Shown: positions 2,990 through 6,877 of the stretch, in pieces | How the letters are laid out: each line of letters opens with the position of its first letter | Position numbering within the stretch: the first letter of the stretch is position 1 | From: Aequorivita echinoideorum | GTDB taxonomy: Bacteria; Bacteroidota; Bacteroidia; Flavobacteriales; Flavobacteriaceae | Assembly (NCBI RefSeq): GCF_018476645.1 | Contig: NZ_JAHCTB010000003.1 | Location: 372,001 to 436,000, forward strand | Length of the DNA: 64,000 bases | Reading direction: 5' to 3' | Position numbers and translations under genes: made by a program | Notes under the pieces: generated by a model | What the model saw: only the letters and a program-made list of their open reading frames with translations | Told to the model about the DNA's origin: nothing | Databases searched by the model: none

Positions 2990-4825
2990 TTGCCTAGACA
3001 AGTCCCAAAATCCATAACCGATAAAGAAAAAACAAGCGTCCGTGATTCCTTCAAGGCGTTACGCACCATTCCACGGTTTTTTAGGGAAATCTACCGCGCC
3101 AGCCCCAAGTTGTTTTTTGTAAATACCTTCAGCAGGTTGCTCAATGCCTTTACCCCCGTGGTGATCCTGTGGGTGGGGAAAATGATCATTGATGAAATTA
3201 TCCAGCAGGTTTCCCTCGAAGATAAAGACTTCACCCAACTATGGAACCTCGTGCTTATCGAGTTCTGTGTGGCAGTGCTTTCCGATTTACTCGGAAGATT
3301 GATAAACCTGACTGACGGACTCCTGGGCGACCTCTACAGCAATGCCTCTTCCGAAAAAATAATCCGAAAGACTGCTGAGCTTACCATCGCGCAACTGGAA
3401 GACCCCGAGTTTTACGATAAACTGGAGCGCGCACGTACGCAAACCAACAGCCGCGTGGACTTGATGAGCAACGCCTTGGGCCAAGCCGAAAGCCTTATTT
3501 CCATGGTATCGCTCATTGCGGGCTTGGTCTATTTTGAACCCATCCTTATATTGATCCTCGTCCTTAGCATCATCCCCTCATTTATCAATGAGGCCAAATT
3601 CAGCAGTACGCGCTATTCCGTGGCACGCAGTTGGACCGCCGAACGCCGCGAACTGGATTACCTCCGCTTCATTGGGGCCAACAACCAGACCGCCAAGGAA
3701 ATCAAACTCTTCGGGTTAACCGATTTTATCGCCGAACGCTTCAAAAACCTTTCAACCGACTATTACCTCATCAACAAAAAACTGTCGCTCAAGCAGAGCC
3801 TGTACGGGTCGCTGTTCAACATTTTGGGCGTGCTCAGCTATTACGGCGCGTACGTTTACATTATCCTGCGTGTGCTGGCGGGCGCCATCACCATTGGGGA
3901 GCTTACCTTCCTTTCGGGTTCCTTCAACCGGTTGCGCAACAACTTGCAGGGTTTCTTTTCGCGCTTTACCCGCATTTCAGAAAGTGCGCTGTACCTTCAG
4001 GATTACTTCGATTTTATTGATTTAACGGTTGAGCAGACTGCTGAAACCAAGACCCCCATCCCCGAAACCATCACGCAAGGTTTTCAAGTGAATAATCTGC
4101 ACTTCGCCTACGCCGGAAGCGAAACCGAAGTCCTAAAAGGCGTAACCTTTACCCTAAAGGCAGGCGAAAAAATGGCGTTTGTGGGGCAGAACAGCGCGGG
4201 CAAGACCACGCTCATCAAACTCTTTCTCCGCTTTTACGAACCCACGCAGGGCGAGATCCTTTTGGACGGCATCAACATAAACCGGTTTGATGTGGACGAA
4301 TACCGAAAACGGTTTGGCGTCATCTTTCAGGACTTTTTTAAGTATGAATTCACACTGCGCGAAAACATAGCCGTGGGCAATATAGACCAAGTGCAGAACG
4401 ACGAAATAATAAACTACGCCGCGAGCAGAAGCCTTGCCGAACAGGTGGTGGGCGAGATGGCGCACGGCCTCGAGCAACGCCTGGGCCGCAGGTTTTACAA
4501 AGGCACCGAACTTAGCGGTGGTCAGTGGCAAAAAGTGGCATTGGCGCGCGCTTATATGAAGGATGCGGATGTTATGGTGCTGGACGAACCCACCAGCGCG
4601 CTGGATGCGCAGGCGGAGTACGATGTTTTTGAACGCTTTATCGCCCTTACCAAAGGCAAGACCAGCATTATTATTAGCCACCGCTTTAGCACCGTGCGTA
4701 TGGCAGACCGTATTTTGGTACTGCAACACGGCCAAGTGCTGGAGCTGGGCACCCACCAAGAGTTAATGGAGAATGGAAAACTGTATGCCGAGCTGTTTAG
4801 GTTGCAGGCGGCGGGGTATCAATAA
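2990..4825 (+). CDS. ABC exporter, fused permease and ATPase
   Basis: A 611-residue half-transporter of the type IV (former type I) exporter fold. It has an N-terminal six-helix membrane domain (about residues 20-340) and a C-terminal nucleotide-binding domain. The latter shows Walker A GQNSAGKTT, signature LSGGQWQKVALARA, Walker B VMVLDEPTSALD and the switch histidine in IIISHRFSTV. It would work as a homodimer, and the substrate cannot be told. The start is TTG at 2990: an in-frame TAG at 2981 excludes anything upstream, and the first downstream ATG would remove the first membrane helices. The 3' end of this gene is duplicated twice downstream (5719-5797 and, partly, 5860-5874), which marks it as an integration site. 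Confidence 0.92.
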   Translation: MPRQVPKSITDKEKTSVRDSFKALRTIPRFFREIYRASPKLFFVNTFSRLLNAFTPVVILWVGKMIIDEIIQQVSLEDKDFTQLWNLVLIEFCVAVLSDLLGRLINLTDGLLGDLYSNASSEKIIRKTAELTIAQLEDPEFYDKLERARTQTNSRVDLMSNALGQAESLISMVSLIAGLVYFEPILILILVLSIIPSFINEAKFSSTRYSVARSWTAERRELDYLRFIGANNQTAKEIKLFGLTDFIAERFKNLSTDYYLINKKLSLKQSLYGSLFNILGVLSYYGAYVYIILRVLAGAITIGELTFLSGSFNRLRNNLQGFFSRFTRISESALYLQDYFDFIDLTVEQTAETKTPIPETITQGFQVNNLHFAYAGSETEVLKGVTFTLKAGEKMAFVGQNSAGKTTLIKLFLRFYEPTQGEILLDGININRFDVDEYRKRFGVIFQDFFKYEFTLRENIAVGNIDQVQNDEIINYAASRSLAEQVVGEMAHGLEQRLGRRFYKGTELSGGQWQKVALARAYMKDADVMVLDEPTSALDAQAEYDVFERFIALTKGKTSIIISHRFSTVRMADRILVLQHGQVLELGTHQELMENGKLYAELFRLQAAGYQ

Positions 4826-4855
4826 TTATGAATTTTGAATGGCGAATTTTGAATT
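4777..4855 (+). repeat. Exporter-gene tail, copy A (in place)
   Basis: The last 48 bp of the ABC exporter gene plus about 30 bp of downstream sequence. The same segment recurs 942 bp further on at 5719-5797 with about five mismatches. The three differences before the stop codon are all synonymous, so both copies encode the ending KLYAELFRLQAAGYQ followed by TAA. Confidence 0.95.
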
Positions 4856-4911
4856 ATTAAAATTATTCTAAAACTTTTCAATCATTGTCCGGTTGAGCAA
4901 TTACAATGGCT

Positions 4912-4931
4912 GGTCGAGCGCAGTCGAGACC
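4912..4931. repeat. REP-like palindrome (GGTCGAGCGCAGTCGAGACC)
   Basis: A GC-rich imperfect palindrome, GTCGA-GCGCA-GTCGAGAC, stands out in AT-rich intergenic DNA. It resembles the repetitive extragenic palindromes found in many copies in Bacteroidota genomes. It lies between exporter-tail copy A and the AbiF-like gene, so it marks the left side of the accessory island. It could also act as a small transcription-blocking hairpin. Confidence 0.6.
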
Positions 4932-4976
4932 TCCTCTTGAAGAAAATTATTAAAATATATTGTAAATTGAAGACAT

Positions 4977-5037
4977 AAAAAAAACCCGGATTCATCACCA
5001 GCATCTAATATCTGGGAGAGGAATTACCGGGACAGCA
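4977..5037 (-). ncRNA. Probable divergent small RNA of the AbiF-type system
   Basis: Read on the minus strand this is a compact structured transcript of about 60 nt. A perfect TAnnTTTG promoter box lies just upstream (5043-5050). The RNA can form an outer stem, CCCGG (5031-5027) with CCGGG (4989-4985), enclosing a second stem, CCAG with CTGG, and it ends in eight U, as an intrinsic terminator does. It lies directly upstream of the AbiF-like HEPN gene and is transcribed away from it. Abi_2/AbiF proteins are known to be accompanied by a conserved structured RNA, so this is the likely partner. That it neutralises the toxin is inference from that family. Confidence 0.65.
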
Positions 5038-5042
5038 GGGTA

Positions 5043-5050
5043 CAAATATA
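5043..5050 (-). promoter_or_regulatory. Minus-strand -7 box TATATTTG
   Basis: The sequence matches the Bacteroidota housekeeping -7 consensus TAnnTTTG exactly and points away from the AbiF-like gene. It would start the small RNA at about 5037. No clear -33 TTG was found. Confidence 0.55.
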
Positions 5051-5057
5051 CATAAAA

Positions 5058-5708
5058 ATGGACAGACATTTCTACGAAAAAGTTTTTTCCACACAACGAA
5101 TGGATAAATACTTCAAACGTTATCCAAAAGATGAAGCAAAAGCTATCATCCATTATAAAACAAATATTGAACTTTCTGAAGCATTTTATGCCGTTCTTTC
5201 ATTATATGAAGTGGCTTTCAGAAATAGTTTGAATAGAGAATTAACCGAATATTTTGGAACTGTTGATTGGTATTTAAAAATTGGTTCTGTTCCAGGATTA
5301 AAAAATTTGAATGGCAGTATTCAAAACGCTCAAAAGCACATTGCCAATAGAAGCGAAACAATAACTGCTAATAAGGTTATCGCTGAACTAACAATGGGTT
5401 TTTGGGTAAGACTGTTTAATGCTGAGTATGAACTTATATTGTGGAAACCCTTACGGAAAGCTTTTCCGTATTTGGAAAAAAGTGAAAGACAACGTAACAA
5501 TGTTTCTGCCCCAATAAACAAAATTCGCGATTTCAGAAATAGGGTTTTCCATCACGAACCTATTTCGTGGAATTTAGATAAATTAGCTGAAACACACGAA
5601 AGAATTTTGAAAGTAATGGGCTGGTTGAATGAAGATTTGCCAAAGGTTGCTAAAGAAATTGACCGAGTTCCGCAGATTATTAATCAAGCTAAGCAATTAA
5701 ATATTTAA
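5058..5708 (+). CDS. Abi_2/AbiF-like HEPN abortive-infection protein
   Basis: A 216-residue cytoplasmic protein of the Abi_2 (AbiD/AbiF) family. The N-terminal signature is the helix around TNIELSEAFYAVLSLYEVAF, followed by RNSLNRELTEYFG. The HEPN ribonuclease motif R-x4-H is present as RNRVFH in RDFRNRVFHHEP near residue 165, so the protein is probably an active RNase. Family members act in phage defence as toxins that shut down growth, paired with a structured RNA, and are considered related to the ancestors of Cas13. A divergent small RNA candidate lies directly upstream, and the gene sits between two copies of the exporter gene's 3' end. It is more AT-rich than the exporter, as expected for a transferred gene. 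Confidence 0.85.
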   Translation: MDRHFYEKVFSTQRMDKYFKRYPKDEAKAIIHYKTNIELSEAFYAVLSLYEVAFRNSLNRELTEYFGTVDWYLKIGSVPGLKNLNGSIQNAQKHIANRSETITANKVIAELTMGFWVRLFNAEYELILWKPLRKAFPYLEKSERQRNNVSAPINKIRDFRNRVFHHEPISWNLDKLAETHERILKVMGWLNEDLPKVAKEIDRVPQIINQAKQLNI

Positions 5709-5718
5709 AACCTCACCC

Positions 5719-5797
5719 AAAACTGTATGCCGAGTTGTTTAGGTTGCAGGCAGCGGGGTATCAGTAATTATGAATTTTGAATGCAGAATTTTGAATT
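5719..5797 (+). repeat. Exporter-gene tail, copy B
   Basis: A displaced copy of the exporter gene's 3' end, about 94% identical to 4777-4855. It keeps frame and stop codon but has no coding sequence upstream of it. It lies 10 bp after the AbiF-like gene. The purely synonymous changes in its coding part suggest it evolved as a functional gene end before being separated. Confidence 0.95.
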
Positions 5798-5837
5798 GAT
5801 TTTAAAAGGAAATTTTAGAGTAATTTGTAACGGAAGA

Positions 5838-5866
5838 GCACGAGCGAGACGCTCGCGCTAGCGGGG
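5838..5866 (+). repeat. REP-like inverted repeat, left arm
   Basis: A 29-bp GC-rich element containing the inner palindrome GCGAG-ACG-CTCGC followed by GCTAGC. Its reverse complement recurs at 6882-6910 with two mismatches, and an outer GTAATTTG also matches on both sides with a 10-bp indel. The pair flanks the membrane coiled-coil gene, in the manner of a REP pair or a small non-autonomous mobile element. Confidence 0.85.
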
Positions 5867-5874
5867 TATCAGTA
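5860..5874 (+). repeat. Exporter-gene tail, copy C (15-bp remnant)
   Basis: AGCGGGGTATCAGTA repeats the last codons and stop region of exporter-tail copy B. It overlaps the end of the left REP-like arm in the shared word AGCGGGG, which looks like the junction of a short-homology recombination event. Confidence 0.7.
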
Positions 5875-5920
5875 GATTAAAATAAAAATATTTGTTATAG
5901 TAAGTATTGAAAATAAATCT

Positions 5921-6877
5921 ATGGAAGTAATTAATTCATTTTTCAGCAACATAAAAGATAAGTTAACAAATCCATTTTTCGGAACACTCATTATTGTTTT
6001 GCTGATAGATTATTGGGAACTATGGTATGCTTTGTTCAATTTTGATGAAGGGTTTACTCTTAATGATAAAATAATTTTCATTGAAAACTATGTATTGAAC
6101 AACATAACCTTTTGGTCATTTGTATGGAATATCGCGCAAGCAATAATTTTCATGTTTGCTGGATATCTAATTGTGGTGGGGACTAGAAGTATAGTTCTTT
6201 GGATTGAATTTTACCTGATGCCTCTAATTACTGGAAAAATTATAAATAAAAATGTTGTTCGTAAAAAAGAATATGATGATGTGGTAAAAGAACGTGAAGA
6301 ATATTTTGATCAATATGAAGAACAACGTCAAAATGTTAGAAATTTTTCTAAAACAATTGATGAACAGACAGAACAAATTAAATTAAAAGATCAGCAACTT
6401 TTGGAACAAAGTGATAAACTCAGTCACACAATTGGAGAGTTAGATTTAAATAAAGAGAGATGGGGTCAATCTCAAAAATTGAATGAAGATAAAGATAGAA
6501 ATATTGAGGTATTGACAAATAAATTAAGTCAACTTGAAAGTCAATACGCCTTTGAATTGAGAAGATCAAAAAAATATAGAAATCTCTTTTTTGGAAGTGA
6601 AAACACTAGTTATTATAACTCAACAGTAAAATTTCCCCCAGAAATAATAAACAAAGTAAAAGAATTAAAAAATTATGGAAAATGGAATGGATTTTTAGGT
6701 TTGGGTAATTTTTTAGAATATGGTGGATCTATCGGAGGGGAATTAATTACGGATATGGTAGAAAGAGGTATTATATTTAAACGAGGCGAGCACGAAGAAT
6801 TTACTCCTCTAGGCTTAATTATATGGAAATATCGAAAAATTTTCGAGAATAGTAATTCTGACTTTGGTCCTGAATAA
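5921..6877 (+). CDS. Membrane-anchored coiled-coil protein, accessory
   Basis: I do not recognise the family. The 318-residue product has two hydrophobic segments (about residues 19-40 and 65-100), then a long charged region predicted as coiled coil (about 115-215, rich in Glu, Gln and Lys), then a compact C-terminal domain of about 90 residues. That domain ends LITDMVERGIIFKRG...FTPLGLIIWKY, which looks like a small winged-helix-like fold. The layout of two membrane helices plus a C-terminal ending in a TPLG motif recalls phage superinfection-exclusion proteins of the SieB type, but this is only a resemblance. The gene is AT-rich, flanked by inverted REP-like repeats, and follows the AbiF-like gene, so a defence role is plausible. 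Confidence 0.75.
   Translation: MEVINSFFSNIKDKLTNPFFGTLIIVLLIDYWELWYALFNFDEGFTLNDKIIFIENYVLNNITFWSFVWNIAQAIIFMFAGYLIVVGTRSIVLWIEFYLMPLITGKIINKNVVRKKEYDDVVKEREEYFDQYEEQRQNVRNFSKTIDEQTEQIKLKDQQLLEQSDKLSHTIGELDLNKERWGQSQKLNEDKDRNIEVLTNKLSQLESQYAFELRRSKKYRNLFFGSENTSYYNSTVKFPPEIINKVKELKNYGKWNGFLGLGNFLEYGGSIGGELITDMVERGIIFKRGEHEEFTPLGLIIWKYRKIFENSNSDFGPE

Follow-up and report, generated by a model that had tools for sequence, protein, structure and literature searches.

The described systems closest to the locus reported here include two AbiF-type HEPN proteins that come with an RNA partner. According to the accessible portions of the respective papers, AbiF of the C. difficile phage phi027/phiC2 is found with the RNA RCd22 (PMC12373285) and PbAbiF (PDB 8vz6) with the RNA partner AbiFr (PMC12737573), the latter paper also proposing AbiF as the ancestor of Cas13. 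PD-T4-5, an E. coli plasmid gene for abortive defence, is termed a distant relative of AbiF/D, and the accessible portion of its source mentions no RNA for it (PMC9519451). Here we analyse a locus in a 64,000-nucleotide (nt) stretch of the genome of Aequorivita echinoideorum (contig NZ_JAHCTB010000003.1, positions 372,001 to 436,000; hereafter the window), where an open reading frame on the plus strand (5058-5708) encodes an AbiF-like, toxin-like single-HEPN protein of 216 amino acids, a predicted RNase, and where a structured RNA of about 60 nt, its ends predicted from sequence, is encoded divergently on the minus strand (4977-5037).

Like AbiF-RCd22, this unit pairs an AbiF-type HEPN protein with an adjacent short RNA of P1-P2 structure, and behind the 5' P1 strand both RNAs have a CU-rich segment, as judged by eye. 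In phiC2, however, the RNA lies upstream on the same strand as the gene and in two motif copies, whereas the window unit has a single copy on the opposite strand; the phiC2 RNA matches the Rfam model of the abiF RNA, RF03085, whereas the window RNA does not, and R2, our covariance model of the window RNA and its relatives, does not match phiC2. With PbAbiF the comparison is made at the protein level only, where identity to the window protein is 13%. In ToxIN, a type III toxin-antitoxin system, the RNA consists of tandem repeats that precede the toxin gene on its own strand, and type III repeat RNA is co-transcribed with the toxin. The window unit resembles ToxIN in that an RNA is predicted to neutralise an RNase toxin and in that a structured RNA gene sits directly beside the predicted toxin gene; it differs in its HEPN fold and in its RNA, which is not a co-transcribed repeat but divergent and single-copy in its own genome.

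Results

On the minus strand of the window the TATATTTG box (5050-5043), which we take to be a Bacteroidota-type -7 promoter element and hence the promoter box of the RNA, is followed by a short spacer, a conserved 47-nt core (5031-4985) and eight T (4984-4977), the last giving a U8 run behind P1 that is probably a built-in terminator. The core, as defined in alignments A3 and A5, comprises P1 (5 bp), P1b, an invariant UCUC, P2 and a GAUGAA side, with stems formed by CCCGG..CCGGG and CCAG..CTGG. An earlier, sequence-only reading of the locus had described a TAnnTTTG box, nested stems and eight U on this strand, and all were located where it had placed them; its length of about 60 nt likewise fits 4977-5037, the transcription start being predicted from sequence. 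Among 19 Bacteroidota-phylum loci, two of which (L017 and L018) are near-duplicates, 17 have a TAnnTTTG that begins 15-20 nt ahead of P1. The folding energy of the single minus-strand sequence is mildly unusual (z -1.6 to -2.1), a value that chance could give on its own, and the plus strand folds equally well or better (z -2.9). As folding energy does not favour the minus strand, we assign the RNA to it from the promoter box, the U-run and a few G-U pairs.

This RNA recurs beside homologous genes. A protein scan of genome contigs gave 18 loci, 16 of which could be assessed for an upstream RNA (L015 and L019 begin inside the gene): all 15 Bacteroidota loci with upstream sequence have the same RNA, upstream and on the opposite strand, and the Cupriavidus locus L021 has a larger form that is matched weakly (15.8 bits, E 0.23). 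Homologs on gammaproteobacterial plasmids (L024-L028, L087, L095; 32-41% protein identity) also have it, with a P1 of CCUAG/CUAGG or CUUGG/CCAGG, a P1b that is GUC/GAC in most and, by eye, an extra 3' hairpin and a terminator-like stretch; in L084 and L085 P1 is CCAAG/CUUGG. A protein match was found in 680 plasmid records, of which 15 were fetched, and the model found the RNA beside the gene in eight of these; a BLAST search of plasmids with the window RNA region returned nothing beyond the known Bacteroides record.

Linkage was counted over 71 sources with a possible gene, 70 of which match the family profile, the remaining one being phiC2 (L096). An RNA match accompanies 43 of the 70 genes and lies on the opposite strand in 43/43 and upstream in 42/43, so that the opposite-strand placement remarked on in the sequence-only reading holds throughout and the arrangement is not that of RF03085 in phiC2, upstream on the same strand. 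The exception as to position is L083, a locus fetched by the RNA search, where the RNA (1501-1546) and the gene are convergent, the RNA being located at the gene's 3' end. Two weak matches were retained in the count, that of L021 and one in L038 (18.8 bits, E 0.034). Matches in L039, L040 and L045 (11.0-14.2 bits, E 1.1-9.5) and in L048 (12.2 bits, E 2.3) had been excluded beforehand as chance, the one in L040 being on the gene's own strand past its 3' end, as had a second copy in L034 (20 bits) past the 3' end of the same gene. Where the profile score is at least 155 and at least 150 nt of upstream sequence are available, the RNA is present beside 39/39 genes (30/30 after dereplication at 95%), with a cut-off picked post hoc, after the data had been seen, and with L038 counted on its 18.8 bits; 42 genes reach this score, three of them without usable upstream sequence. 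Below 155, the RNA accompanies 4 of 27 genes with upstream sequence. Mapped onto a tree of 50 proteins, the RNA label takes 6 changes where shuffles take 15, and it occurs to either side of the midpoint; L015 and L037, whose upstream sequence is missing, were scored as lacking the RNA. In L023, a Bacteroides plasmid, the homolog is apparently frameshifted (two pieces; a 148-amino-acid gene) and the RNA at 1911-1957 has broken P1 pairs, so that gene and RNA appear to be decaying jointly.

The structure is maintained by compensatory change. A first model, R1 (76.9 bits for the window RNA), was built from 12 in-register Bacteroidota rows, and R2 (72.9 bits) from 22 of the 23 rows of A3 realigned by R1 (alignment A5), with the window RNA among its training rows and with L032, whose core is identical to the window's, omitted. 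Over the 22 distinct rows of A5, whose pair counts are biased towards the structure by alignment to a model of that same structure, 97.9% of cells are paired, a share that drops to 85.5% on shuffling, there are 48 double-change cells, against 15, both sides change at 10 of the 15 pairs, and the covariation score is 0.421, compared with at most 0.073 for slid structures; further pair types (16, against 18.5) do not exceed shuffles. In the unfitted alignment A3, double changes occur at 7 of 10 predicted pairs. The core is otherwise nearly invariant except for the short hairpin loop and a few bases of the P1-P1b linker, while in ten divergent loci the identity of the flanks drops to about chance (0.29) within roughly 50 nt of the RNA. 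Because homologs from many families have the core upstream while the flanks diverge to chance, we regard the RNA as real and not as a chance fold: on comparative evidence, it is a covarying RNA, divergently encoded and fixed to an AbiF-like HEPN protein.

Conservation and covariation upstream of homologs, the lack of which would have refuted the sequence-only reading, are thus both present; another check proposed with that reading, a search with the abiF RNA covariance model, came out the other way. RF03085 has no match in the window at its gathering score, nor at E<=10 in 4820-5110 or in the whole genome, and we therefore speak of an AbiF-like unit and not of the abiF RNA. In the same genome an R2 search at E<=10 returns a single match, the window RNA. 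RF03085 also gave no match beside distant homologs where tested, and genome G510 has a 35.5-bit match (cut-off 37) on a different contig from the gene. By eye, some of these homologs have other RNA-like segments upstream. In L004, L039, L040 and L041 a divergent segment on the opposite strand has the form P1-(A)AAGCCUCU-hairpin-NGUA-P1', and since the AAGCCUCU string also occurs in the RF03085 consensus, these segments may bridge the two RNA families; L042, L043 and L050 have a third divergent short hairpin with CCCGGUAG..CUAUCGGG-like arms and then a U-rich stretch, and L088, L089 and L094 a CU-rich segment inside a stem, while inspection of the regions upstream of the genes in L029, L060 and L091 gave nothing clear. 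We treat such candidate segments as leads, not results.

The protein has an intact HEPN motif, RNRVFH (R160-H165, 5535-5552 on the plus strand), as noted in the sequence-only reading of the open reading frame 5058-5708, and the motif fits the R-polar-x3-H pattern of HEPN RNases. Across the 14 homologs of alignment A1, R160, N161, R162, F164 and H165 are unchanged in all. Comparison of the predicted structure with solved folds placed 8vz6_A (PbAbiF) on top, well separated from the next chain, which bears out the AbiF-type HEPN fold proposed for it; searches of solved structures by sequence with the window protein (phmmer, profile) gave nothing relevant, so that PbAbiF surfaced through the fold comparison only. 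The score against PF07751 (Abi_2) is 24.0 bits, under the gathering score of 25.6, and for this reason we call the protein AbiF-like and do not file it as an AbiF/Abi_2 member; among relatives, L093 (31.5 bits) and L094 (32.5 bits) pass and L092 (19.9 bits) fails, and the fetched frame of L039 has no match to PF07751. The best PADLOC profile is PD-T4-5 (PDLC04038; E 7e-13, 46.5 bits, residues 11-172), which is displayed without a curated cut-off and whose model is longer (309 positions); it is also the best profile for the seven homologs scanned. The product of the gene at 5058-5708 probably cuts RNA.

The RNA also occurs without the gene. Under strict filters, R2 finds at least 20 matches in at least 16 of 395 Bacteroidota-phylum genomes; of 20 such matches, eight adjoin the gene (the window included, as well as a second copy beside the same gene) and 12 have no family match in the fetched flanks. 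Eleven of these 12 orphans belong to one genus, g150 (L063-L066, L072-L074, L076, L077, L079 and L080, three of them in one genome), often near genes that by eye resemble type I methylase subunits; some other g150 neighbours we take, also by eye, to be BrnT/BrnA-like pairs. Seven orphan-bearing genomes have no protein match genome-wide at E<=1e-10, and three others (G328, G363, G423) have matches elsewhere in the genome, mostly fragments. Six of 398 Pseudomonadota genomes match R2, two with the gene, three as orphans and one, L086 (27.6 bits), probably falsely; the last was dropped as coding sequence by eye. Over 20 distinct orphan rows 92.7% of cells are paired, against 83.9% in shuffles, with one pair mostly open; double changes occur at six pairs, a count reached by 32 of 500 shuffles. 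The converse, a gene of the close clade without the RNA, was found in 0/39 cases.

Within the genus the RNA is present in five of 28 genomes, with the gene in three of these and without it in two. In the window the RNA-gene cassette is bounded by a 79-nt direct repeat, whose left copy (4777-4855, plus strand) covers the 3' end of an ABC transporter gene and beyond and whose right copy (5719-5797, plus strand) is 94% identical. G021 (L111) has an RNA core identical to that of the window near the same ABC 3' end, with the gene cleanly missing and the repeat left; in G026 (L157) the RNA lies near the same ABC 3' end beside other cargo, again without the gene. That 3' end was detected in 20 of the 28 genomes. 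In four (the window's own included) the RNA comes directly after it, in the rest mostly unlike sequence, and since what follows it differs among genomes, we regard it as a cargo site. In the window this site of varied cargo falls in 4825-6877, where the protein encoded at 5921-6877 is similar, by visual comparison, to the beginning of a protein in L100. Elsewhere in the window, tandem-like repeats lie at 2690-2890 behind the gene 2096-2866, with a repeated GYWLLAI in an antisense frame.

A strict search pattern run over viral contigs gave 11 stretches, five with the gene and six without; the six gene-less contigs, searched whole, have no family match, in a search without positive control, whose empty result by itself proves nothing, and on records that may be fragments. 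In L121 (1883-1923) and L125 (769-809), the same locus on contigs of 66.6 and 78.2 kb, the core (39.3 bits) follows a TATATTTG box; on the same strand, tRNA-Arg/Met precede it and a tRNA-Trp gene comes 28 nt after it. In L124 (865-912; 47 bits) the RNA lies between tRNA-Gln and tRNA-Thr, and in L127 (3435-3473; 315 kb; 21.5 bits) about 1 kb ahead of a run of 19 tRNAs; this closeness to tRNA genes may be fortuitous. In L119 (7650-7699; 51.3 bits) and L128 (4106-4156; 48.1 bits) the RNA directly follows a prophage gene on the same strand, the one in L119 being weakly DUF6575/PDC-M32A-like, and no HEPN gene was found. Head or tail genes lie near the RNA in L124 and L119; the tested neighbours in L121, whose DNA has stretches in common with uncultured phages of 635-642 kb, include an HNH endonuclease and no structural gene. 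Two looser patterns added five and 19 stretches. The five (24.1-24.5 bits) stand in near-identical context that by eye resembles conserved coding sequence; of the 19, 15 lie in open frames of at least 100 amino acids, six match the model at E<=1 and none exceeds 23 bits. These were set aside, with L147 (22.8 bits), which has no long frame, kept as a candidate. One further pattern had no matches, and BLAST of the window RNA region against phages gave one weak Aeromonas phage match (E 7e-3).

Discussion

We consider it probable that the locus encodes an AbiF-like HEPN RNase together with an RNA antitoxin of its own in back-to-back arrangement, an interpretation supported by the predicted fold, the covarying RNA structure, the fixed opposite-strand linkage and the gene-loss asymmetry. 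The sequence-only interpretation is supported in the form of an AbiF-like unit, to which we attribute a toxin-antitoxin or defence function from homology, co-occurrence and gene-loss patterns; transcription, binding, neutralisation, toxicity, trigger and anti-phage effect are likewise matters that we infer. A promoter between the two genes would drive the RNA, which would fold as a P1-P1b-P2 hairpin with strands bearing the invariant UCUC and conserved GAUGAA segments, and its transcription would end at the U-run behind P1. On binding to the HEPN dimer the RNA would keep the active site blocked, much as AbiFr does in PbAbiF and RCd22 in C. difficile AbiF. Shutdown of host transcription by a phage, or loss of the RNA, would free the dimer to cleave RNA, and growth would stop. 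A second and weaker layer may be added in several relatives, where a gene-strand -7-like box behind the RNA terminator would give the toxin mRNA a leader antisense to the whole RNA. The asymmetry of RNA without gene favours an antitoxin because a cell can survive losing the toxin while retaining its antitoxin, whereas the opposite loss is not tolerated; weighing against this, an RNA useful in its own right would give the same asymmetry.

The RNA might instead act on the gene, by pairing with a toxin mRNA leader that is antisense to it or by transcription interference (type I-like, or at the promoter), which we think unlikely. Its promoter does sit between RNA and start codon, and at 8 of 15 loci gene-strand TAnnTTTG boxes (four perfect, four with one mismatch) lie behind the RNA at -96 to -110 and would make the leader fully antisense, although this range was noticed post hoc, without a chance rate, and two of the four perfect boxes are near-duplicates. 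The window itself, however, has no such box, the RNA of L083 is at the 3' end of its gene, orphan RNAs retain structure with no adjoining mRNA, and the compensatory changes keep intramolecular pairs that antisense pairing does not need. It is more doubtful still that the RNA is a conserved terminator or a recombination boundary of the cargo site in which the protein plays no direct part: P1 with its U-run does resemble a Bacteroidota terminator, orphan copies exist and the 79-nt repeat flanks the cassette at a site of varied cargo, but termination requires neither the invariant UCUC, nor the GAUGAA side, nor P2 covariation, a promoter box is kept at a nearly fixed distance, and the gammaproteobacterial plasmid copies have, by eye, a further hairpin and terminator-like stretch downstream. 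The proposed ancestry of Cas13 in AbiF (PMC12737573, accessible portion) suggests yet another role, that of a cofactor which activates or guides the RNase, as a step towards Cas13-like guidance; we hold this to be the least probable of all, as the core has no long variable guide-like segment and loss of the gene with retention of the RNA suits an inhibitor better.

If the RNA is an antitoxin, as we prefer, it may found a new family of divergent, single-copy antitoxins for short AbiF-like HEPN RNases in Bacteroidota and Pseudomonadota, with phages carrying toxin-less mimics (two lineages beside tRNA genes) and bacteria keeping orphans as anti-addiction RNAs; taken jointly, these proposals are tentative, and we would sooner expect some part of them to fail than all to hold. 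That the gene-less viral copies are phage antitoxin mimics is a guess, for which pseudo-ToxI of phage PhiTE offers a precedent in the accessible portion of its source (PMC3475682). In the literature searched, which largely excludes subscription papers, we found no divergent RNA described for AbiF-like genes; the RNA models of Zilberzwige-Tal et al., named in the accessible text of PMC12804078, might include this RNA. A covarying, opposite-strand RNA of another sequence, found with an AbiF-like RNase in two phyla, would widen the set of putative source systems of Cas13. Many 'Abi family' genes of plasmids and genomes may thereby gain a testable RNA partner, and, given the orphan copies in viral contigs, the idea that phages mimic the antitoxin to counter HEPN defences can be tested directly.
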